From NCBI GenBank assembly GCA_937871435.1, contig CALMQM010000013.1, positions 1-64,000 on the forward strand: 64,000 bases of DNA, in the 5' to 3' direction. Source of the DNA: an uncultured Bacteroidota bacterium (GTDB lineage: Bacteria > Bacteroidota > Bacteroidia > AKYH767-A > 2013-40CM-41-45). This document shows positions 9,160-21,489 of the stretch, in pieces (position 1 is the first letter of the stretch; every line of letters begins with the position of its first letter). A model generated the notes under the pieces. It was not told where the DNA came from, ran no database searches, and was given only the letters and a program-made list of their open reading frames with translations. The translations under genes and the position numbers were made by a program.

Positions 9160-9975
9160 ATGATCCAAGAAACAAGTATTGCTTTTTCAGGAAGCATCCC
9201 TATGAACTATGAAAAGTACCTCGGACCACTTTTCTTTGAACCTTTTGCTAAAAACATTTCTAACCGCGTCAAGGAACTTCAGCCTTCTTCCGTTCTTGAA
9301 CTTGCCTGCGGTACAGGCAGACTGACAAAGTATTTGCCTTTTGCAATTTCTCCGGGAGGAAGAATCGTTGCCACGGATATCAATCCGGCTATGCTTGAAT
9401 ATGCGAAGCATTCTTTGCGTGACCTGGAAGGTATTGACTGGAAAGTGGTAGACGCGGTGGAGTTGCCGTTCAGAGACAGTTGCTTTGATGTGGTGGTGAT
9501 ACAATTCGGTGTTATGTTTTTCTCGGATCGTCACCAGGCATTCACCGAAGCGTTGCGTGTATTGAAACCCGGAGGTACATTGATTTTCGCTTCCTGGGAT
9601 CAGCTGCGAAATAATCCTGTCGCTCGTGTGACGGACGAATTGGTTACGCGTTATTTTCCGATGGACACTCCTGGATTTTATAAAATTCCATTCTCGTATT
9701 TTAATGAGCACAAGATTCACGAAGAGCTGGATGAGGCACTGTTTCACAATGTGAGTATTGAGTTGCTCAAGCTGTATGGTGAAAGCAAAACTGCAGGGGA
9801 AGCAGCCATGGGTCTGTTGCAGGGATCTCCGATACATACAGCCATTGTTGAAAGAAACGCAAGTGTGTTGCCGGTGATGATTGAACAATTGACGGAAGAA
9901 ATCGCCTCACTGTTTGGAAAGAAAAATCTGAGCATTCCGATTCAGGCACTGGTGACAACAGCCAGGAAAAAATAA
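9160..9975 (+). CDS. Class I SAM-dependent methyltransferase
   Basis: 271 residues. Motif I is VLELACGTGRLTKYL (about residues 46-60), with the acidic residue at the end of strand 2 in IVATDINPAML and motif IV in FDVVVIQFGVMFF. The post-motif ALRVLKPGGTLIFASWD is typical of the UbiE/COQ5-like group. The acceptor substrate cannot be told. It stands alone between an AraC regulator and a second methyltransferase, which is a different subfamily rather than a recent duplicate. Confidence 0.88.
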   Translation: MIQETSIAFSGSIPMNYEKYLGPLFFEPFAKNISNRVKELQPSSVLELACGTGRLTKYLPFAISPGGRIVATDINPAMLEYAKHSLRDLEGIDWKVVDAVELPFRDSCFDVVVIQFGVMFFSDRHQAFTEALRVLKPGGTLIFASWDQLRNNPVARVTDELVTRYFPMDTPGFYKIPFSYFNEHKIHEELDEALFHNVSIELLKLYGESKTAGEAAMGLLQGSPIHTAIVERNASVLPVMIEQLTEEIASLFGKKNLSIPIQALVTTARKK

Positions 9976-10232
9976 GTGTTACCATTCCTCAATATTAATA
10001 CGAATAAAGAACGGTATATTCCGCAGGGATTTCGGTTCAGTTATTTCGTAAACTGAAGTATGATTGGTATAGTAGGATTTTCATCCGACAGTTTCCAATT
10101 TGTGGATGCTGCAATTGCGGAGGTATAGGTAATTTCATCCGGTATTGGGAAAGATGCTAAGGAATTAGTATTTTTATTTTTTTCAATAACGGATGAAATT
10201 ATTTTTATTTGAATTATCCTAAACACTCGCTG

Positions 10233-10973
10233 ATGAAAAATGTTTTTTCTATTCAACCGGAACAGTATGCGGCATATCGACCTGCTTATCCGGCTGAATT
10301 GCTCGATTATATTCTTTCCTCAGTGAAAGAACGAAGAACGGTTTGGGATTGTGGCACCGGTACTGGTCAGATAGCGATACAGCTTGCTCCGTATTTTGAG
10401 AGAGTGTTTGCTTCAGACATCAGTGAAGCGCAGTTGAGCAAAGCAAAGGCTGATGAAAAAGTTGAATACAGCATGCAGGCTGCCGAGAATACGGATTATC
10501 CCGATGATATTTTCGATTTGATCGTAGTAGCACAAGCAATTCACTGGTTTGATTTTGATTTGTTCTATGATGAAGTGAATCGTGTGTTGCGCGATAACGG
10601 AGTTTTTGCAGTCATTGGTTACGACCGTCCGGTAGTGAGCCCGGAGATCGACAGGATCATTTCAGATTTCTATACCCGTATTGTGGGCCCGTTCTGGGAT
10701 CCGGAAAGAAAGTATATTGATGAACAATATAAAACGATTCCTTTTCCATTTACTGAATCATTGGTTCCTGAATTTAAGAATAGCCTGCAATGGGATCTGG
10801 AACATTTTATTGGTTACCTTAAAACCTGGTCTGCAGTAAAGCACTACGAAAAAGCGAATGGAGTGAACCCGGTGGATGTTCTGCTCCCACAACTCAGTGC
10901 ATACTGGAATGACGCGGAGGAAAAAAAAATTGACTTTCCTATTTTGTTAAGAGTAGGAAGGAAGCAGGAATAA
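10233..10973 (+). CDS. Class I SAM-dependent methyltransferase
   Basis: 246 residues from the ATG at 10233; an in-frame TTG 24 bases upstream is the only alternative. It opens with FSIQPEQYAAYRPAYPAELL, the hallmark of the small-molecule methyltransferase group related to trans-aconitate and UbiE-like enzymes. Motif I is VWDCGTGTGQIAIQL, and FDLIVVAQAIHWFDFD is the post-II segment with the characteristic HWFD. The substrate is unknown. The 257 bp before it hold no supported gene. Confidence 0.88.
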   Translation: MKNVFSIQPEQYAAYRPAYPAELLDYILSSVKERRTVWDCGTGTGQIAIQLAPYFERVFASDISEAQLSKAKADEKVEYSMQAAENTDYPDDIFDLIVVAQAIHWFDFDLFYDEVNRVLRDNGVFAVIGYDRPVVSPEIDRIISDFYTRIVGPFWDPERKYIDEQYKTIPFPFTESLVPEFKNSLQWDLEHFIGYLKTWSAVKHYEKANGVNPVDVLLPQLSAYWNDAEEKKIDFPILLRVGRKQE

Positions 10974-11246: not shown

Positions 11247-13325
11247 ATGAAAAAATCTACCAAACGTGTTATGAAAATGGCATTCATAGGTACTGCTTTG
11301 ATTGCCGCAGGTATCACAGGTTTCCGGACTTATCGACTTCAGGCTTCCAGTCACCGCGAAGCCCCGCTTATCGCCAATGATCCGGTTGCAGACAATACAG
11401 ACTTATATGTATTTCGCAGTCCGGATGATACCAATTCCGTTACTATTCTTTCCAATTATGTACCGGCAGAATTGCCACAAGGCGGACCGAATTATTTTTC
11501 TTTCGGAGAAAATGTTCGTTACGAAGTGCATATTAAAAACAACCCGGCCACACCTGGTGATGACATTACATATCGTTTCACTTTTACAAAAGTCAATCAG
11601 GACCCGACCACTTTTTTCAACATTCGTCTAGGACAAGAAAATCTGAAGACGACCTATACAGCTGAGAAAAGTATTGCTGGTGGCGCTTTCACAACTATTG
11701 TAAGCAATGGTATCGTTCCTCCCGCGAACATTGGTCCGCGTTCTATCACCGGTGGAGCCGGTTTAAATGCTCCGGACTATGAAACCTTGTTCAATGCCGC
11801 TGTCACGACAGCAAGTACAGGCGAAACGATTTACTGCGGACCGGCAGATGATCCTTTCTTCGTGGACCTCGGTGGTATTTTTGATCTTGGACAAACACGC
11901 GCCGGAGGTACCGGTGTAGATGCGCCGAAGGATGGATTGAAATGCAAAAATGTACATGTGATTGCGATCAAAGCACCGATTAGTGCTCTTCAAAAAGACA
12001 ACAAAGATGTAACACAGGCAACCAACATTCTTGACCCGGAATTTGTAATCGGTGTGTGGGCATCTGCAAGTCGTCCACAATTGCGAACTCTCAACGGCGA
12101 CGGAACAGAAACACATTCCGGAAACTGGGTGCAGGTTTCGCGTCTCGGGATGCCACTAACCAACGAAGCAGTGATTCCAATTGGCATGAAAGATTTTTGG
12201 AATTCACTCACTCCATATCAGGACAGCACTTATTTCGACGATTACTTCTGTAATCCGGAATTGGGCCTGTACATGGATGACAACTTATTCGGTGGAGCTG
12301 TTCCTGCAATGAGTGCTTTGCGTATTCAACATGCATCCCCGACACTTTTAGGGAATGTCGATTTTGGTAATACTCACGATGGTTTGTATGTGCTTTACGG
12401 AAATGCGGCAACAACAGGAACGGCATTGGACACTGCTATCTTCGGAAAATATTTATTGCGTCAGGGCAAACCACGTTCTGCCGACTTGCTTCCGATTTTC
12501 TACACAGGTGTACCGAACCTTGCCCCCTATCAACTGGCCACAGGAAAAACAGCGGGTAATCCGCTTACTGCGGGAAAACCATTCATCAACAACTTCCTCC
12601 CGACTTTTGGTGATATGTTACGTCTGAATATGGCCGTGCCTGTAACAGACCGCACATCTCCTGATTTCAGTTCAGAAGGTATTATCAATGCCGCTGTCCT
12701 TGGCTTAACTGATCCTCGCTTCAATACGAATACCAATCTTGAATTTATTCCGAACATGGATGGTTTCCCGAATGGTCGTCGTCTGGAAGATGATGTTACA
12801 CGGATTGAATTGCAGGCAGTAAGTGGTGCTGCTCTTGCAGCAGTAGGCTTATGGTACGATGATTACGTTATAGGCAACAGCCCTCTCACTCCGAAATTAC
12901 TCGGTGTTTTGGGATACACAACCGGTATCGAGCAAAATGACACCAACTTCCGCACATCATTTCCATATGTACAATTACCCTGGAGCGGTTACGATCTGTG
13001 CACTGGTGGTTACGTGCTTACGGCAATAGATCCAAATGGAACACTCAATGTCGGAGCTCCGGATCTGTTGATGACAAGTTATCCGAACCCAACCAGTGAG
13101 GTGATGAATATCCGTTACCGTGTTGGCGGGAAAATGAGAGTGACAATTAAAATTTTTGACGCAACAGGAAAAATCGTTTCAGTACCGGTAAACAATGAAA
13201 TGAAAGATCCCGGAACTTTTGAAGTGAAATGGTCAACAGGAAAGAATGCCGCAGGAGTATACTATGCGACACTATCCAACAATGATCAGACTGTGCAATC
13301 GCTTAAATTGAGTGTGGTTAAATAA
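11247..13325 (+). CDS. DUF4331 domain protein with T9SS sorting domain
   Basis: 692 residues. After an N-terminal signal-anchor-like segment (about 9-27) comes SSHREAPLIANDPVADNTDL, the diagnostic opening of DUF4331, a family of exported proteins of unknown function. The domain runs to about residue 590; YPNPTSEVMNIRYRV (about 612-626) starts a type A sorting domain ending in GVYYATLSNND. The protein is therefore predicted to pass through the T9SS to the surface. It heads a four-gene operon (gaps 60, 26 and 20 bp) with a TPR protein, a HupE/UreJ-like membrane protein and a TonB receptor, suggesting a shared role in uptake (inference). A hairpin after its stop may reduce read-through. Confidence 0.88.
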   Translation: MKKSTKRVMKMAFIGTALIAAGITGFRTYRLQASSHREAPLIANDPVADNTDLYVFRSPDDTNSVTILSNYVPAELPQGGPNYFSFGENVRYEVHIKNNPATPGDDITYRFTFTKVNQDPTTFFNIRLGQENLKTTYTAEKSIAGGAFTTIVSNGIVPPANIGPRSITGGAGLNAPDYETLFNAAVTTASTGETIYCGPADDPFFVDLGGIFDLGQTRAGGTGVDAPKDGLKCKNVHVIAIKAPISALQKDNKDVTQATNILDPEFVIGVWASASRPQLRTLNGDGTETHSGNWVQVSRLGMPLTNEAVIPIGMKDFWNSLTPYQDSTYFDDYFCNPELGLYMDDNLFGGAVPAMSALRIQHASPTLLGNVDFGNTHDGLYVLYGNAATTGTALDTAIFGKYLLRQGKPRSADLLPIFYTGVPNLAPYQLATGKTAGNPLTAGKPFINNFLPTFGDMLRLNMAVPVTDRTSPDFSSEGIINAAVLGLTDPRFNTNTNLEFIPNMDGFPNGRRLEDDVTRIELQAVSGAALAAVGLWYDDYVIGNSPLTPKLLGVLGYTTGIEQNDTNFRTSFPYVQLPWSGYDLCTGGYVLTAIDPNGTLNVGAPDLLMTSYPNPTSEVMNIRYRVGGKMRVTIKIFDATGKIVSVPVNNEMKDPGTFEVKWSTGKNAAGVYYATLSNNDQTVQSLKLSVVK

Positions 13326-13335
13326 TGATGGTTGA

Positions 13336-13367
13336 AAACGGCGGGGCTCTGTAAAGCTCCGTCGTTT
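13336..13367 (+). terminator. Intra-operon hairpin after the DUF4331 gene
   Basis: AAACGGCGGGGCT (13336-13348) pairs with AGCTCCGTCGTTT (13355-13367) over 13 positions, two of them G-U, around a 6-base loop, followed by ATTTTAAAA. The T-run is weak, so it is more likely a partial terminator or mRNA stabiliser that sets expression of the first gene above the rest. Confidence 0.55.
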
Positions 13368-13385
13368 ATTTTAAAATCCAATCAC

Positions 13386-14711
13386 ATGAAAAGGAAAATA
13401 ACCTACACAAGTCTGCTTATATTTTGCTCTGCACTTCTTGCATTGATTTTTCGTTACCGGACACCGGAACAAATTGTACCGTTGAAATTGAGAAATGGCG
13501 AATTGTCTCTCTCAACAGAATGGGCCGGAACTCAACAAGCCATCGATAACATGCTGCTTGTATTAGCGGATCATCCGGAAGATCAGAAGACACGATTAAA
13601 ACTTGCGTATGCATACATACAAGAGGGTCGAATCACAGGTGATCACGCTTACTATGATTCTGCCACATTAGAACTTCTTGATGATCTGCTCAACAAAGAA
13701 CCCAACAACGCCGAAGCATTGTGTGCAAAAGCAACAGTATTACTTTCTCAGCATCATTTTACCGAAGCAATTGCTCCGGGAGAAAAAGCAAGGGAATTAA
13801 ATCCTTATCTCGTTTCGGCATATGGAGTCCTTACAGATGCAAATCTTGAATTAGGCAATTATCAAAAAGCAATTCGCTATGCCGATACTATGGTGAGTAT
13901 CCGTCCGGATATAAGATCCTATTCACGGATCTCTTACCTGAGAGAAATTCACGGTGATATAAATGGGGCAATTGACGCGATGAAAATGGCAGTGGAAGCC
14001 GGTTATCCCGGATTAGAACAAACAGAATGGTGTCGTGTTCAACTCGGACATTTGTATGAAAGTTCAGGAGACTTGTTTCAAGCGCAAAATTGTTATAAAA
14101 ATTCCGTTTACAACCGACCAACGTTTGCTTTCGCGTATGCGGGACTTGGGAGAATAGAAAAAGCAAAAAACAATTATTTCGCCGCGCAAAAATATTTTGA
14201 ACAAGCCATACAACTTATTCCGGATGCTTCCTTTTATCACGAACTCACGGATTTATTTCGAATCAGCAACCGGCAGGATGCAGCCGCGCGATGTGCTGAA
14301 AAAGAACTGGAATGTCTTGCAGGATCTGGAGGTGATGAAAGCGCTAAAGTACACGGTCATTATGCCGACAAAGAATTGGCGCTCGTTTATCTTGACTTGT
14401 ATGATTACAGTCGTGCTTTGCAGCATGCAATAATCGAATACAACCGTCGTCCGGAAAACATTGAAGTAAATCAAACACTTGCCTGGGTGTATTTCAAAAT
14501 GGGAAATTATGTTGAAGCAAACAGGTATATCAATAAAGCATTGGCCACAAATTGCGTACAACCTGTATTAATGTATCAGGCAGGATTGATTAAAAAGAGA
14601 ACCGGAGAAAATATTGAAGGAGAAAAACTGATAAGAGCGTCACTCACTATGAATCCGTTTTTGAGTCCATCATTACTCTGGGAGGATAAAATACTTCTTG
14701 CAAATAAATAG
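13386..14711 (+). CDS. TPR repeat protein of the DUF4331 operon
   Basis: 441 residues from the ATG at 13386 (an in-frame TTG at 13332 would put the start before the hairpin and is rejected). A membrane-anchor or signal segment covers about residues 5-23. The rest is built of tetratricopeptide repeats, for example NAEALCAKATVLLSQHHFTE, FAFAYAGLGRIEKAKNNYFA and NQTLAWVYFKMGNYVEANRY. TPR proteins act as scaffolds; this one probably faces the periplasm and may bring operon partners together (inference). It is followed 26 bp later by the HupE/UreJ-like gene. Confidence 0.85.
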   Translation: MKRKITYTSLLIFCSALLALIFRYRTPEQIVPLKLRNGELSLSTEWAGTQQAIDNMLLVLADHPEDQKTRLKLAYAYIQEGRITGDHAYYDSATLELLDDLLNKEPNNAEALCAKATVLLSQHHFTEAIAPGEKARELNPYLVSAYGVLTDANLELGNYQKAIRYADTMVSIRPDIRSYSRISYLREIHGDINGAIDAMKMAVEAGYPGLEQTEWCRVQLGHLYESSGDLFQAQNCYKNSVYNRPTFAFAYAGLGRIEKAKNNYFAAQKYFEQAIQLIPDASFYHELTDLFRISNRQDAAARCAEKELECLAGSGGDESAKVHGHYADKELALVYLDLYDYSRALQHAIIEYNRRPENIEVNQTLAWVYFKMGNYVEANRYINKALATNCVQPVLMYQAGLIKKRTGENIEGEKLIRASLTMNPFLSPSLLWEDKILLANK

Positions 14712-14737
14712 AAGCACCCTAAACAGAACAGCTGAAC

Positions 14738-15412
14738 ATGAAATATTTTATTCACCATCGGAATACATTCTCATGCCTGTTCGTTACGCTCCTTTTAACC
14801 GTTGCATTCACCGCTGTTGATGCGCACGCAATCAGCGCCGACCTTGAAAATCTATCCCGCACGCAAATCGGCTGGACATATTTTAGTCTTGGCTTCACAC
14901 ATATTTTACCCAAGGGCTACGATCATGTGCTGTTTATTCTTGGTTTGTTTTTATTGAGTCCGAAACTCACTGATATTCTTTGGCAGGCTACAACATTTAC
15001 CATTGCACATACACTCACTTTGGGTTTGGCAATGACAGGAATTATTCATCCCATTAGTGGAATCATTGAACCGCTCATCGCGATTTCAATTGTTTTCGTA
15101 GGAATAGAAAATGTATTATTGAAAGAACTCAGGTGGTGGAGAATAGGTATCGTCTTTTGTTTTGGATTACTGCATGGTTGTGGTTTCGCAGGCGCTTTGC
15201 AAGAAATTGGATTACCGCAAAGTGGTTTTGCTTTCGCGCTCCTGTCATTTAATATTGGAGTAGAACTTGGACAGATTGTAATTATTCTGCTTGCATATAT
15301 GCTATGTGTAAAACACTTTTCAGAAAAAGTCTGGTATCGCGCAAGAATAGTTGAACCGGTTTCTTTGGGAATAGCTGTCATCGCAACATTTTGGGCAATT
15401 GAAAGAATGTAA
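14738..15412 (+). CDS. HupE/UreJ family membrane protein
   Basis: 224 residues. It has a signal-like first segment, then about six membrane helices with the conserved residues of the HupE/UreJ_2 family: FTHILPKGYDHVLFILGL (H55, D62, H63), FTIAHTLTLGLA (H91), FGLLHGCGFAGAL (H146) and FNIGVELGQ (E176). HupE and UreJ proteins are linked to nickel or cobalt transport in hydrogenase and urease loci; no hydrogenase or urease gene is in this window. The position between a TPR protein and a histidine-rich TonB receptor fits a metal-uptake role at the inner membrane (inference). An alternative is an assembly or folding role without transport. Confidence 0.85.
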   Translation: MKYFIHHRNTFSCLFVTLLLTVAFTAVDAHAISADLENLSRTQIGWTYFSLGFTHILPKGYDHVLFILGLFLLSPKLTDILWQATTFTIAHTLTLGLAMTGIIHPISGIIEPLIAISIVFVGIENVLLKELRWWRIGIVFCFGLLHGCGFAGALQEIGLPQSGFAFALLSFNIGVELGQIVIILLAYMLCVKHFSEKVWYRARIVEPVSLGIAVIATFWAIERM

Positions 15413-15432
15413 CTGAAATAAATAGTTCAAAG

Positions 15433-17700
15433 ATGAAAAAATATATACGTACCCTCCTCATATTCCTTCTGGCACTTTTAATGAACTGTTATGTACATGC
15501 GGTTAGTGCATTCAGATATTTTGGCCATGTAACAGACAACGAAACACACCAGGCGATAGTCGGTGCTGTGGTTTCGTTGAACAATGGAACATATTTTGCT
15601 CCTACAGATCAGTTTGGACGATTCGAAATAAAAAACCTGCCACCATCAGATTATTCAGTAAAAATATCCTGTCTGGGTTTTGTATCACTTGTTGACAGTA
15701 TAAAAATCGATCAGGATCACGAAGTATCCATTTCACTGAATGCGGCAACTGTTTCACTTTCTGAAATCACTGTTGCACGGGGAAAAGGACTGACACAATC
15801 GCTCAATGTTTCAGATATTGATTTAGCACTACGTCCGGTTGCCTCTTCGCAGGATTTTTTGCGTTTGGTTCCCGGATTGTTCATTGCGCAGCATGCCGGC
15901 GGAGGAAAAGCGGAACAAATATTTTTGCGTGGATTCGACTGTGATCATGGAACCGACTTTTATATATCCGTGGATGGAATGCCGGTAAACATGGTGTCGC
16001 ATGCGCATGGACAAGGCTATGCTGATTTTCATTTTGTCATTCCGGAAACCATTGATCGGCTGCGAGTATACAAAGGCCCGTACACTACGAAATTCGGCGA
16101 CTTCTCCACCGCAGGTACCGGAGAGTTTTTTACAAAAAATACATTGAAGAAAAATGAACTGAAAGCAGAAGCAGGGTTTTTTGATACATATAGATTGTAT
16201 ACAGGAATCAATCTTCTAAAAGAAAAACATCTGCTTTCCAAAGAACAGGAAAATGCATTCATCGCCGCAGAATACGTATTCACAAACTCATATTTTGATC
16301 ATAAACAGAACTTTGGTCGTTATAATTTATTTGGAAAATATTCAGGTTGGCTGAATAAAAAACAATTCTTCTCTTTCGATGCATCTACTTTTTCCGCTCA
16401 ATGGGATGCTTCCGGACAAATCCCGGAACGCCTTATTGAAAACGGGCAGATCAGCCGATATGGGAGTGTGGATCCTTCTGAAGGAGGAAAAACCAGTCGT
16501 ACAAATGTGAATACAAGCCTTAGCAGTATTCTGAGGAATGACTACACGATAAGAAATCAGATTTATTATGTAAAATATGACTTCGATTTATTTTCAAACT
16601 TTACTTTTTTTCTGAATGATCCGGTTCATGGTGACGAAATTCATCAGCACGATGATCGGAATATTATCGGATACAAAGGAACGATAGACAAAAATTACAG
16701 TCTTGGAAAAGTTCCTCTTGAAACACAATTTGGAATCGGTTCAAGAACCGATCATTCGGTGCTTGCGCTCATGCATTCCGAAAAAAGGGTGACGCTGGAT
16801 ACAATAGTTTCCGGAATTATGCAGGAACATAACCTGAACGCTTATTGGAATTCGGTCGCGCAGCTCAGCAGTCACTGGAGTATGGAAAGCGGTGTTCGGT
16901 TTGATTATTTTCAATTCCATTTCAAAGATGATCGTGGAACTGATTATTCAGGGACAAAATCAATTGCACGTGTTAGTCCAAAACTCAATTTGGATTATGT
17001 TGTAAATTCTTCTCTCCGATTTTTTATTCATTCAGGAATTGGATTTCATTCAAATGACGCAAGAGCTGTTGTGCTTAACCGGGTTAAAAATACCTTACCC
17101 AAAGCCATCGGTTATGAAGCGGGATCAGAGTTTGCTTTTTCCAAACGCTTTCTGGTGAATATCGCTTTATGGAGTCTGCACCTGGAAAGTGAACTTGTAT
17201 ATGTCGGAGACGAAGGGACTGTAGAAACAAATTATCCGACGCAACGGTACGGAACAGACTTTAGCATCCGGGCAGAAATTTCATCGCGGGTGTTTGCAGA
17301 TGTCGATATAAATATTTCTCAGGGAAAACTTATCGGCGCCCCGTTGAATGCCAATGAAATTCCATTGTCTCCCCGTCTTACCAGTACTGGCGGAATCACC
17401 TACAAGAAAGATCAGGGAATAAATTTTAGTCTTCGTTACAGAACAATTGATTCACGTCCGGCCAATGAAACCAATACAGTTGTTGCAAAAGGATACTTTT
17501 TACTGGATGCTGTATCGCAATACAAATGGACAAAGTGGACCATTGGCCTGACGATTGAAAATATCATGAACACAAAATGGAACCAGGCACAGTTTGATAC
17601 AGAGAGCAGACTGGCTAATGAAATGAATTCTGTTTCCGAATTGCACTTCACTCCCGGAACTCCGGTATTTGTAAAGGGAAGCCTTAGTTATTTATTCTGA
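15433..17700 (+). CDS. TonB-dependent receptor with histidine-rich plug
   Basis: 755 residues. After the signal peptide (about 1-26), a carboxypeptidase-regulatory-like domain covers about 27-105 (YFGHVTDNETHQAIVGAVVS). The plug covers about 110-240, and the rest is a 22-strand-type barrel ending in SLSYLF with a C-terminal phenylalanine. The plug holds the family-specific run FDCDHGTDFYISVDGMPVN, then SHAHGQGYADFHF, giving H154, H172, H190, H192 and H200 in 50 residues. Such a cluster suggests binding of a metal ion or metal complex (inference). It is the last gene of the operon, 20 bp after the HupE-like gene. Confidence 0.9.
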   Translation: MKKYIRTLLIFLLALLMNCYVHAVSAFRYFGHVTDNETHQAIVGAVVSLNNGTYFAPTDQFGRFEIKNLPPSDYSVKISCLGFVSLVDSIKIDQDHEVSISLNAATVSLSEITVARGKGLTQSLNVSDIDLALRPVASSQDFLRLVPGLFIAQHAGGGKAEQIFLRGFDCDHGTDFYISVDGMPVNMVSHAHGQGYADFHFVIPETIDRLRVYKGPYTTKFGDFSTAGTGEFFTKNTLKKNELKAEAGFFDTYRLYTGINLLKEKHLLSKEQENAFIAAEYVFTNSYFDHKQNFGRYNLFGKYSGWLNKKQFFSFDASTFSAQWDASGQIPERLIENGQISRYGSVDPSEGGKTSRTNVNTSLSSILRNDYTIRNQIYYVKYDFDLFSNFTFFLNDPVHGDEIHQHDDRNIIGYKGTIDKNYSLGKVPLETQFGIGSRTDHSVLALMHSEKRVTLDTIVSGIMQEHNLNAYWNSVAQLSSHWSMESGVRFDYFQFHFKDDRGTDYSGTKSIARVSPKLNLDYVVNSSLRFFIHSGIGFHSNDARAVVLNRVKNTLPKAIGYEAGSEFAFSKRFLVNIALWSLHLESELVYVGDEGTVETNYPTQRYGTDFSIRAEISSRVFADVDINISQGKLIGAPLNANEIPLSPRLTSTGGITYKKDQGINFSLRYRTIDSRPANETNTVVAKGYFLLDAVSQYKWTKWTIGLTIENIMNTKWNQAQFDTESRLANEMNSVSELHFTPGTPVFVKGSLSYLF

Positions 17701-17953
17701 TAAACAAGTTTATCGATAAATATTCCGCCACAAACAATTCTTCACGTTAGCTCTGGCAAAACAGTTTGTGATCGATATATTCCCCGAAGTATATTGTTGA
17801 ATGTTCAGCTCTGCAAAGTCCCCTCACGATATTGCCTGCACAAAATGATTCCTCCAAGCGCGTGTACTTTTCACCCGTCACTTCTTTTTTTCATGATTAA
17901 GTTCCTGAAAATCGCCTTTGTATCCGAAAAATTATATTTTTACAGCAGAAAAT

Positions 17954-18466
17954 ATGCGATTGAAAGGCCTCGTATCCATTCTGCTTCTTTTTGTTCTCTT
18001 TCTTCAGGCGGGAGGCCTGATCATTTTACATCAATACCGGCAATGTAACACCCAGCAGGAATTGCTGCTTCTGCAAAACAATTCAGTAGCAGGTTTTGAA
18101 AAACTGATTCTCAGCATTCCTGAATTTAACCGGTGCAGAATCAGTAATTCGGAAATGAAATACAATGGTAAATTGTATGATTACAAAACCGTCCGCATTT
18201 ACGGGAATACTGTTGAACTTTCTGTACTCAATGACAGCGCGGAAGAGGGAATCCTCGAAATGATGGCGGCCATGTCCGGTGCTGATGAGAAGGAACAAAG
18301 TAATATTCCTCCCCAACTCCAAAAACTACTCACGCTGAATTACCTTGCTTCATCACAACAACATTTTATTCTGAATAGCGAACAGCACACTGTTTACCAG
18401 ACGTTGAGTGAACAAACAACTATCTGTTTTTCTGAAATTTCCTCTCCGCCTCCGGAACTTTTCTGA
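17954..18466 (+). CDS. Small exported or membrane-anchored protein, unknown
   Basis: 170 residues from the ATG at 17954; an in-frame TTG at 17918 would add 12 poorly hydrophobic residues before the signal. The N terminus MRLKGLVSILLLFVLFLQAG is a signal or anchor. The rest has no recognised domain; it is mainly polar, with three cysteines (including NRCRIS and TTICFSE) and a proline-rich end SSPPPELF. It lies 91 bp before a TonB receptor and is probably co-transcribed, so it may be an accessory of that receptor. No function is claimed. Confidence 0.65.
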   Translation: MRLKGLVSILLLFVLFLQAGGLIILHQYRQCNTQQELLLLQNNSVAGFEKLILSIPEFNRCRISNSEMKYNGKLYDYKTVRIYGNTVELSVLNDSAEEGILEMMAAMSGADEKEQSNIPPQLQKLLTLNYLASSQQHFILNSEQHTVYQTLSEQTTICFSEISSPPPELF

Positions 18467-18557
18467 CTCTGCGATTTCCTGAATTGAATTCGAAGACCGG
18501 AGCATAACGCTTCGCTGTACTTCCTGTTTTTCTATTTATTCCTAACACAAAATTCCA

Positions 18558-20774
18558 ATGAAAAAAAATCAGTTGGCGATCCTTGCATTGCTGATCACAC
18601 TAACATCCCCTTCATTTGCACAAAACACTACCCCCGATTCAACAAAAAATATTTCTCTTAACGAAGTCACCATCAGTGCGAACAAAACAGGAGAATCCAA
18701 ACGCGATGTCGCGCAACAGGTACAGATTTTGAACGCGACTCAAATCGCAGACCTCCACGCTTTGTCAACAGCCGATGTGATCGCGAACACCGGAAATATT
18801 TCCGTCCAAAAAAGTCAGCTTGGTGGCGGCAGTCCGGTCCTTCGCGGTTTTGAAGCCAACCGGATTTTGCTCGTGATTGACGGTGTGCGCATGAACAATA
18901 TCATCTACCGCGCGGGACATTTGCAAAACATCGTAACTATCGACAACAGCTCACTCGACAGAATCGAAATTCTGTATGGTCCTGCTTCCACGATGTACGG
19001 CAGCGATGCACTTGGTGGCGTCATTCATCTCTACACACGTAAACCGGCTTTTTCTTCAGAGAGTGGAAAGAGTAATCTGAAAGTTAACGCGTTCACACAT
19101 TATGGAATGGGAAATGATGATTGGGTCGGCCATTTCGATTTTAATATCGGAGGAAAAAAACTCGCGTCTCTCACGTCATTCACCTACACCGTATTCGATG
19201 ATTCAAGAGGAGGAGAAAATCAAAATCCATATTATGGTGCTTCCTTCGGAGAAAGGCCTTATTATGTGGAACGCATCAACGGCAAAGACTCGCTGGTGAA
19301 AAACAGCGACAGGTATTTACAGGTACAGAGCGGATATTCTCAGTATGATATCACACAGAAATTCGCCTATCGTCAAAATGATCATTTGGTCCACGGATTA
19401 AATATTCAGTATTCCAACTCAAGTAATGTTCCCCGCTATGACCGTCTCACTGATCCGGGCGGTAGCGGATTGCGTTACGCGGAATGGTATTACGGTCCGC
19501 AAACCCGACTGTTGGGAGCATACGACATGCAGTTCAACAATGCTTCTGCAAAATTCCAGGATGTGCACATTGGTTTGAATTTGCAGAACATCGAAGAAAG
19601 TCGTCACACCCGCCGTTTCAACAACGATCATTTACAACACAGAGTGGAAAAAGTAAATGTAATCGGATTCAATGCCGATTTCAAAAGAACCGCGAACAAA
19701 CACACTCTGCGTTTTGGTCTGGATGCGCAATACAACACGCTCAAGTCAACAGCGACGGAAGAGAATATAGTCGATGGTTCGGAAACGCCACTGGATACGC
19801 GTTATCCTGACGGAGATAATTCCATGACTAATGCGGCAGTATATTTTTCTCACACCTGGAAAATCAACAATACTGTGTCGCTTACTGATGGCATCCGTGT
19901 CGGAATGATTTCTCTGCATTCCACGATCAAGGATTCTTCATTCTTCCATTTGCCTTTCACCAAAGCGGATCAGAGTAACCTTGTATATTCCGGTAGTGTC
20001 GGACTTATTCATACACCATCCGACGATCTGAAATTATCTTTGCTACTGTCTACAGGATTTCGTGCTCCGAATATGGATGATCTGAGCAAAGTATTTGAAT
20101 CCGCTCCGGGCGCGGTGATTGTACCGAACGAAGATCTGAAACCGGAGAAAACCATCAATACAGAAATCGGCATCACTAAAATTTACAATGGAAAAACCAG
20201 TTGGGAAAATGCGATTTACTATACGCAATTTACAGATGCGATTGTAACAGATGTATTTCAATTCAATGGTCAGGATTCTATTTTGTACGATGGCAGCATG
20301 AGTCGTGTGTTCGCGAATCAGAATAAAGGCAAAGCATTCATCTATGGATTTTCTTCCGGCATCAGTTCTCAATGCAGCGAGCATTTGCGGATGAGTATCA
20401 ACCTGAATTATACTTACGGCCGCATTAAAACAGATTCATCCGATTTTCCGCTCGATCATATTCCACCTATAGTCGGAAGATTTCAGTTGCATTACGAATA
20501 CAACAAATTCAGCTCTGATTTTTTTATCAATTACAATGGCTGGAAGAAGATGAAGGATTATTATCCGAACGGAGAAGACAATGAACAATATGCAACTCCC
20601 GACGGGATGCCGGCATGGTACACACTTAATTTCCATGCAGGTTATAAAGTACATCGATTGCTGACTGTGCAAGCCGGTGTCGACAATATTTTTGATACAC
20701 AATACAGAACATTTGCCAGCGGTATCAATGGCCCGGGTCGAAACCTGTTCCTTTCATTGCGTTTCCATTATTAA
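18558..20774 (+). CDS. TonB-dependent receptor, haem/haemoglobin receptor-like
   Basis: 738 residues. Signal peptide about 1-21; no N-terminal carboxypeptidase-like domain, unlike the receptor at 15433. The plug contains SPVLRGFEANRILLVIDGVR and RIEILYGPASTMYGSDALGG, the classic plug box. In the barrel, at about residue 500, TGFRAPNMDDL followed by VPNEDLKPEKT recalls the FRAP and NPNL motifs of haem/haemoglobin receptors (HmuR/HemR type). The protein ends in LSLRFHY. The ligand is most likely haem or a siderophore-like complex, but the motif match is not perfect. A strong terminator follows the stop. Confidence 0.88.
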   Translation: MKKNQLAILALLITLTSPSFAQNTTPDSTKNISLNEVTISANKTGESKRDVAQQVQILNATQIADLHALSTADVIANTGNISVQKSQLGGGSPVLRGFEANRILLVIDGVRMNNIIYRAGHLQNIVTIDNSSLDRIEILYGPASTMYGSDALGGVIHLYTRKPAFSSESGKSNLKVNAFTHYGMGNDDWVGHFDFNIGGKKLASLTSFTYTVFDDSRGGENQNPYYGASFGERPYYVERINGKDSLVKNSDRYLQVQSGYSQYDITQKFAYRQNDHLVHGLNIQYSNSSNVPRYDRLTDPGGSGLRYAEWYYGPQTRLLGAYDMQFNNASAKFQDVHIGLNLQNIEESRHTRRFNNDHLQHRVEKVNVIGFNADFKRTANKHTLRFGLDAQYNTLKSTATEENIVDGSETPLDTRYPDGDNSMTNAAVYFSHTWKINNTVSLTDGIRVGMISLHSTIKDSSFFHLPFTKADQSNLVYSGSVGLIHTPSDDLKLSLLLSTGFRAPNMDDLSKVFESAPGAVIVPNEDLKPEKTINTEIGITKIYNGKTSWENAIYYTQFTDAIVTDVFQFNGQDSILYDGSMSRVFANQNKGKAFIYGFSSGISSQCSEHLRMSINLNYTYGRIKTDSSDFPLDHIPPIVGRFQLHYEYNKFSSDFFINYNGWKKMKDYYPNGEDNEQYATPDGMPAWYTLNFHAGYKVHRLLTVQAGVDNIFDTQYRTFASGINGPGRNLFLSLRFHY

Positions 20775-20796
20775 GAAAGGCTTCCGGTTTTTTTTG

Positions 20797-20829
20797 GCGG
20801 GCCGGTGAATTTTACCGGCCCGCTTTTTT
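20797..20829 (+). terminator. Strong intrinsic terminator
   Basis: GCGGGCCGGT (20797-20806) and ACCGGCCCGC (20814-20823) form a perfect 10-bp GC-rich stem with a 7-base loop and a six-T tail. It closes the TonB receptor transcript that ends at 20774. Confidence 0.95.
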
Positions 20830-20876
20830 GTTGACATTTATGACAATGCCATTATTTAATATGGCAATTATTTATG

Positions 20877-20907
20877 TTGATCATGAAACAACATTCAGGT
20901 ATATTTG
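20877..20907 (+). promoter_or_regulatory. Promoter TTG-N20-TATATTTG
   Basis: TTG at 20877-20879, a 20-base spacer and TATATTTG at 20900-20907 match the Bacteroidota consensus. It lies directly after the terminator and 48 bases before the ATG at 20956, and would drive the following membrane-protein genes. Confidence 0.65.
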
Positions 20908-20955
20908 AAATCTCATGATTGTTTCATCATTCCCTGCTTTATCAGATTTCCTGTT

Positions 20956-21489
20956 ATGAACAAAAACGAATTCGAAAATAAGAGCCTTGTCTATATTATT
21001 CTGATTGGTTATGTATTTAATTTTTTATTCACCATCATCGGATATGTCTTCTGTCAAAATTCACCCGCGGAATTACTGAACTATCAATTGGCGAATGCAT
21101 TTGCGATTTCCGCTTCGGTGATGGCTGCACGATATACAGGACTGAGAGCACAGCACGTCGCGGCATCTGCCTATATACTTTTCGGAATTACACACGGAAT
21201 TTCATTGGCTACGTTAAGCAAGGCCGGAATCAATGCCGACAGAGGAATCACAATGGTAATCCCGATGATTCCGGCATTTATTTTTATGTTCTGGTGCAAT
21301 CTCTATCCGCAGTGGTTGCGTTTGCTCGGACTCATTCCGGCTGCATTATTCGCGCTGGTATATGTACGCGTACAATCCGGATTGCCATATTTCGGATGGG
21401 AACTATCCACAGGATACGCTGCACTTCAAATTACAGAAGTTTTGTGGGGAATTTATTTATTTATGGACTGGAAAAAACAAAGGAATTGA
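20956..21489 (+). CDS. Integral membrane protein, unknown family
   Basis: 177 residues from the ATG at 20956; an upstream in-frame TTG lies inside the -7 box and is rejected. About five membrane segments are visible (roughly 12-31, 45-63, 68-88, 97-114 and 123-141), with a charged C-terminal DWKKQRN. No domain is recognised. It is the first gene after a strong terminator and consensus promoter, followed 45 bp later by a DUF4386 protein, and the pair may form a small membrane operon with the DUF1801 gene. Confidence 0.7.
   Translation: MNKNEFENKSLVYIILIGYVFNFLFTIIGYVFCQNSPAELLNYQLANAFAISASVMAARYTGLRAQHVAASAYILFGITHGISLATLSKAGINADRGITMVIPMIPAFIFMFWCNLYPQWLRLLGLIPAALFALVYVRVQSGLPYFGWELSTGYAALQITEVLWGIYLFMDWKKQRN

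Follow-up and report, generated by a model that had tools for sequence, protein, structure and literature searches.

We analyzed a 64,000-nucleotide stretch of DNA from an uncultured Bacteroidota bacterium (assembly GCA_937871435.1, contig CALMQM010000013.1, positions 1 to 64,000; hereafter the window) and found in it a four-gene operon encoding, in order, a DUF4331 protein, a tetratricopeptide repeat (TPR) protein, a HupE/UreJ_2 permease and a TonB-dependent receptor. The operon is real, conserved and very probably metal-related, and we see about an even chance that it serves to capture and import a metal, Ni(II) being the likeliest and Cu(II) the main alternative. A TonB receptor with a HupE-type permease is a known kind of system; the new element is the uncharacterized secreted partner, DUF4331, a candidate protein metallophore that would serve a Ni/Cu capture module. 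According to an initial annotation of the window, the four genes share a strand and are separated by 60, 26 and 20 bp; these coordinates were confirmed exactly (Table 1).

The gene context was surveyed across 296 evenly sampled Bacteroidota genomes and, separately, in 80 DUF4331 loci from named Bacteroidota genomes, with neighbors read within 8-10 kb and some loci truncated. DUF4331 was found in 38 of the 296 genomes, either as a single long protein, often with a second copy in tandem, or as a pair of short proteins. Of the 80 loci, 68 have the family-specific TPR protein, 44 the receptor family, 31 HupE and 49 a tandem DUF4331; for the 48 of them that span at least 17 kb, the counts were 46 for TPR, 31 for TonB and 19 for HupE. 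The Bacteroidota order DUF4331-(DUF4331)-TPR-(HupE)-TonB and the strand are widely conserved, and the TPR and HupE genes overlap or abut (median gap -1 in the 80-locus set). HupE_UreJ_2 is present in only 87 of the 296 genomes, mostly as one copy per genome of several Mb, yet it is found at the above frequency beside DUF4331, so that the proximity of the two is far above chance. Co-occurrence across genomes had been set beforehand as the test by which the initial proposal could be refuted; the association and order of the four genes were conserved and the proposal was not refuted.

The core of the operon recurs in three phyla. Outside Bacteroidota, DUF4331-TPR-HupE was found in Proteobacteria (Marinobacter, Pseudoalteromonas, Lichenicola, a Comamonadaceae plasmid and Variovorax), and DUF4331-TPR-NicO was found in Actinobacteria (Streptomyces and Embleya). 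Since HupE stands in some loci and NicO in others, the permease slot is occupied by either of two families whose annotation is nickel or metal transport. DUF4331 thus spans at least three phyla, adjoining a permease of a metal-transporting family. In eight loci (L073, L077, L101, L102, L136, L142, L148 and L149), the HupE and TonB genes have small exported open reading frames (ORFs) between them, which contain His and end in a Pro-rich (PPP) tail; the window has none at this position.

The initial annotation had described the first protein as exported by the type IX secretion system (T9SS). Its C-terminus indeed matches a T9SS type A sorting domain (PF18962 and TIGR04183), with a structure match to PorU and PorZ. 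The N-terminus was compared in 88 DUF4331 sequences whose leader was readable. They were gathered by a search anchored on the His-X-Glu/Asp-Ala-Pro motif, so that the set tests where the leader lies relative to the His, not whether the His is present. The conserved block begins abruptly at a signal-peptidase-like site: the -1 residue is Ala in 83 sequences and Ser in 5, the -3 residue is small or aliphatic (L/A/V/G/S/I/T), and the -2 residue is variable. After the predicted cleavage, 86 of the 88 proteins begin with Ser-Ser-His and 2 with Ala-Asp-His, which places a His at +3 in 88 of 88. The +3 His is also found in DUF4331 of Rhodobacterales, Pseudoalteromonas, Lichenicola, Marinobacter, Streptomyces, Embleya and Miltoncostaea, and one Marinovum sequence reads G↓ASH (the arrow marking the predicted cleavage). 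Ten short-form DUF4331 proteins likewise have the pattern A↓ADH, in which cleavage one residue later is possible. When a crude leader rule that was not tuned to the motif was applied, His was at +3 in 70 of 106 DUF4331 proteins vs 9 of 298 exported ORFs of other kinds. When His is the third residue from a free amino terminus, the three residues form the amino-terminal Cu(II)- and Ni(II)-binding (ATCUN) motif, which chelates Cu(II) or Ni(II) in a square plane. Mature DUF4331 thus probably begins with an ATCUN motif at the predicted cleavage point, and this start is new in the present analysis. Invariance extends well past the three ATCUN residues, through SSHREAP and PNGRRxxDD, and because the REAP after the His is conserved too, the segment also has another job, such as docking.

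The T9SS tail in Bacteroidota and a dedicated type II secretion (T2SS) cluster in Rhodobacterales, of which DUF4331 is suggested to be a substrate by the place of its gene, together suggest that DUF4331 works outside the outer membrane. The AlphaFold model of the protein (pLDDT 78.8) has a beta-rich core and a weak N-terminal segment (below 50 at aa 27-44). A sequence search of PDB gave no match for DUF4331 or HupE, and no paper on DUF4331 or PF14224 was found in the open-access literature searched. In the short-form loci L050-L061, DUF4331 is encoded as two short neighboring proteins, of which the second looks like a lipoprotein; genes for a SigK-like sigma and an RskA-like anti-sigma factor are often nearby.

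The permease matches PF13795 with 147.3 bits against a cut-off of 24.5, and H55, D62, H63, H91, E111 and H146 are invariant among 22 operon homologues; the four His among them are those that had been named from the window alone. Its leader is predicted to end at A29↓H30, and all 21 aligned homologues that have a leader agree (-1 is Ala in 20 and Ser in 1). The N-terminal His after the predicted leader also occurs in the proteobacterial HupE and actinobacterial NicO proteins of DUF4331 loci. In common with nickel permeases of the HupE/UreJ type such as Rhizobium HupE, the protein belongs to the same Pfam family far above the cut-off, conserves H55, D62, H63, H91 and H146, and has a predicted exported N-terminal His, but it sits with DUF4331, TPR and TonB in a genome without detected hydrogenase or urease genes. 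In the HupE/UreJ-2 'anglerases', an N-terminal His (His1) was shown in 2025 to bind Cu/Ni (PMC12537917). According to the same paper, DUF6702, of a Ni/Co/Cu-binding family, binds Ni(II) at picomolar affinity, and DUF4198 adjoins TonB receptors and NikR. The permease of the window resembles Ang-1/Ang-2-HupE/UreJ-2 in having a predicted mature His1 joined to a HupE/UreJ-2 permease, with DUF6702 substituting for His1 in some relatives. Three DUF4331 loci have a leaderless HupE directly preceded by a DUF6702 gene, where DUF6702 may stand in for the missing leader and His1; a fourth leaderless HupE (L048) has no DUF6702 neighbor within the stretch read. Unlike the anglerases, the window protein (224 aa; permease domain from aa 48) has a short tail of about 18 aa before the membrane domain and no separate beta-sandwich Ang domain, and the anglerase paper does not mention DUF4331 or TPR.

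The receptor has a plug and a TonB-type beta-barrel by Pfam, and its AlphaFold model (pLDDT 85.8) shows the ordinary fold of a TonB-dependent transporter, with FecA and PqqU as the closest Foldseek matches. The five plug His residues pointed out earlier (H154, H172, H190, H192 and H200) are invariant among 36 operon homologues. Proteobacterial relatives, with about 30% identity across 80-90% of the length, keep H154, H172 and H192 at 0.94 and H190 at 0.76; in the barrel, H539, D542 and D491 occur throughout the set. Specific to Bacteroidota receptors is H200, where Proteobacteria have Asn; the window receptor further differs from its NikR/hoxN-linked relatives by an extra CarboxypepD_reg domain and by a genome without detected NikR. 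We inspected 13 annotated loci of these relatives, of which the first four were chosen partly for organisms known for hydrogenase or methylotrophy and the later nine were taken down the match list. nikR adjoins the receptor gene in five (Afipia, Methylomagnum, a Comamonadaceae plasmid, Polymorphobacter and Paraburkholderia), and a hoxN-type transporter gene is near it in five (Paraburkholderia, two Bradyrhizobium, Sphingopyxis and, about 4 kb away, Cupriavidus). Hydrogenase genes are nearby in four (Cupriavidus, Afipia and two Bradyrhizobium) and cobalamin genes in two (Sphingopyxis and, further off, Methylorubrum). Overall, 10 of the 13 loci have at least one such neighbor, and the Indioceanicola, Methylobacterium XJLW and Sphingobium loci have none. 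On a Hymenobacter plasmid (L067), the same receptor family and a His1 HupE occur in a parallel operon in which a cytochrome c peroxidase and three proteins of DUF3500, likewise an uncharacterized exported family, take the place of DUF4331; these DUF3500 proteins have no X-X-His start.

Based on these features, we propose that DUF4331 would be exported by Sec, that loss of the leader would free the Ser-Ser-His chelator, and that T9SS would move the protein to the cell surface, where a metal or metal complex would be bound. The TonB-dependent receptor would then carry the metal across the outer membrane through its plug His cluster, the TPR protein may act as a periplasmic docking or adaptor factor, and the permease, with its N-terminal His1 and membrane His residues, would carry the metal across the inner membrane. 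In hemophore systems such as HasA, a secreted heme-carrying protein feeds a TonB receptor. The likeness is one of proposed logic, a secreted protein capturing a nutrient for a TonB receptor, and no sequence relation is claimed; the hand-over is hypothetical here, and the ligand site would be the N-terminal ATCUN tripeptide. If the DUF4331 N-terminus is truly ATCUN, this would be the first function for the family, would widen the idea of an N-terminal metal chelator from His1 to X-X-His, and would give TonB and HupE systems an exported partner for metal capture. More generally, DUF4331 could represent a widespread class of secreted protein metallophores, in which the leader cut exposes Ser-Ser-His or Ala-Asp-His, Ni(II) or Cu(II) is loaded extracellularly after T9SS or T2SS secretion, and the metal is passed in Bacteroidota to the His-plug receptor and the His1 permease; we offer this extension tentatively and consider it rather doubtful. 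Of the surface-to-inner-membrane metal route drawn in the initial annotation, the link to metal is supported by the nikR, hoxN, cobalamin and hydrogenase neighbors and by the predicted N-terminal chelating residues of two exported proteins; the direction of uptake, the metal and a single route through all four proteins are presumed.

Several observations weigh against the proposed uptake operon. HupE is missing from 49 and TonB from 36 of the 80 loci, some of which are truncated, and in four Rhodobacterales plasmid loci (L167, L168, L170 and L171) DUF4331 lies inside the dedicated T2SS cluster with no HupE or TonB nearby; because of such loci, the complete route from the surface to the inner membrane is something that we infer. 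A SigK-like sigma gene is near 14 and an RskA-type anti-sigma gene near 11 of the 80 loci, and also in Pseudoalteromonas, which may point to stress and not to starvation. The core of DUF4331 is without an assigned fold, since a fold search with the model matched the T9SS tail only (PorU and PorZ) and barely probed the core. The initial annotation had seen no hydrogenase or urease gene, and this extends to the whole assembly (100% complete), in which no urease or NiFe hydrogenase was detected; ARD (acireductone dioxygenase), LarA, NikR and CobN were likewise not detected in the genome. There is thus no obvious consumer of Ni or Co. NikR linkage or control, as expected of a nickel TonB receptor, is absent here, though relatives have it. 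A search of the genome for nickel superoxide dismutase gave no match, with the controls equally silent.

The choice of metal was also considered across genomes. Of the 9 surveyed genomes that have a HupE-bearing locus, 3 carry urease (G033, G072 and G166) vs 7 of 287 others, an association that is weak because two of the three share a genus. NiFe hydrogenase had no trustworthy association with DUF4331 in the surveyed genomes, and the occurrence of CobN does not follow that of DUF4331. A system related to cobalt or corrinoids would fit the cobalamin genes near some receptor relatives (Sphingopyxis and Methylorubrum), the B12-dependent MetH in the genome and the Co branches within HupE/UreJ (PMC2667541), but the genome has no CobN, nickel-specific neighbors outnumber cobalt-specific ones, and an Rfam scan of the window gave no match at the gathering threshold, hence no cobalamin or other riboswitch; we regard this explanation as quite improbable. 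Nickel is favored on the evidence of relatives, not of this genome's own needs, and copper is a serious alternative.

In a different explanation, the operon serves envelope defense: secreted DUF4331 would sequester excess Cu(II) or Ni(II), or give protection from oxidants that metal generates, while the role of transporter and receptor would be homeostasis, not nutrition, under SigK/RskA control. Cu(II) is the metal that ATCUN holds tightest, genes for extracytoplasmic function (ECF) sigma and RskA-type anti-sigma factors are next to DUF4331 in Taibaiella, several Saprospiraceae, Pseudoalteromonas and the flavobacterial loci of the short form, and a SigK-like sigma factor has been discussed in photo-oxidative stress (PMC7074977). 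However, TonB receptors import, the operon has no efflux genes, and the receptor relatives are tied to NikR and to hydrogenase or cobalamin supply, so that defense appears unlikely. About equally unlikely is a role of DUF4331 as a secreted metalloenzyme or surface protein with the N-terminal site as its active center, for which HupE and TonB only supply or recover the metal. The reach of the SSHREAP and PNGRRxxDD invariance, far past the three ATCUN residues, would suit such a protein, as would the pairing of Rhodobacterales DUF4331 with a dedicated T2SS and no transporter nearby; on the other hand, no enzyme fold or known catalytic motif was found in DUF4331, whose core was barely probed, and the protein is tightly coupled to permeases in three phyla. 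That same cross-phylum DUF4331-TPR-permease order, with genes overlapping or nearly so, leaves hardly any room for the four genes being mere neighbors with unrelated functions, an explanation that the facultative membership of TonB and HupE might favor but that is already close to refuted.

Table 1. Features of the DUF4331-TPR-HupE-TonB operon in window coordinates.
Feature	Position	Strand	Details
DUF4331 protein, exported T9SS cargo	11247..13325	+	692 aa; PF14224 2e-128; Por_Secre_tail PF18962 3.5e-9 at aa 612-684
Predicted DUF4331 signal peptide, aa 1-33	11247..11345	+	last residues L-Q-A; (-3,-1) rule pattern, 88 homologues
S34-S35-H36 codons, predicted mature N-terminus Ser-Ser-His (ATCUN-type X-X-His)	11346..11354	+	His at +3 in 88/88
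T9SS C-terminal sorting domain, DUF4331 aa 612-684	13080..13298	+	Pfam/TIGR04183; VIA-align Z 11.4 vs PorU C-terminal domain, 9.4 vs PorZ C-terminal domain
TPR protein	13386..14711	+	441 aa; TPR_2 3e-18; ATG start, longer TTG start at 13332 possible
HupE/UreJ_2 permease	14738..15412	+	224 aa; PF13795 3.7e-43; invariant columns
His30 codon, predicted mature N-terminal residue (His1) of HupE	14825..14827	+	A↓H or S↓H in 21/21 aligned homologues with leader
TonB-dependent receptor, His-rich plug	15433..17700	+	755 aa; Plug 2.3e-15; barrel 3.8e-17; CarbopepD_reg_2 at N-terminus
TonB plug domain with H154, H172, H190, H192, H200	15808..16119	+	four of five His common to nikR/hoxN-adjacent proteobacterial receptors

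The TPR protein is probably membrane-anchored or exported, as judged from its hydrophobic N-terminus. Just downstream of the operon (window 17918-21489) are genes for a membrane protein, another TonB receptor and a small protein that is exported; these genes probably form a separate uptake cluster. This second receptor is unrelated to the first, is without the H154/H172/H190 motif, and resembles heme/hemoglobin receptors (TIGR01786 and TIGR01785). Immediately upstream of the operon are two methyltransferase genes (window 9160-10973).

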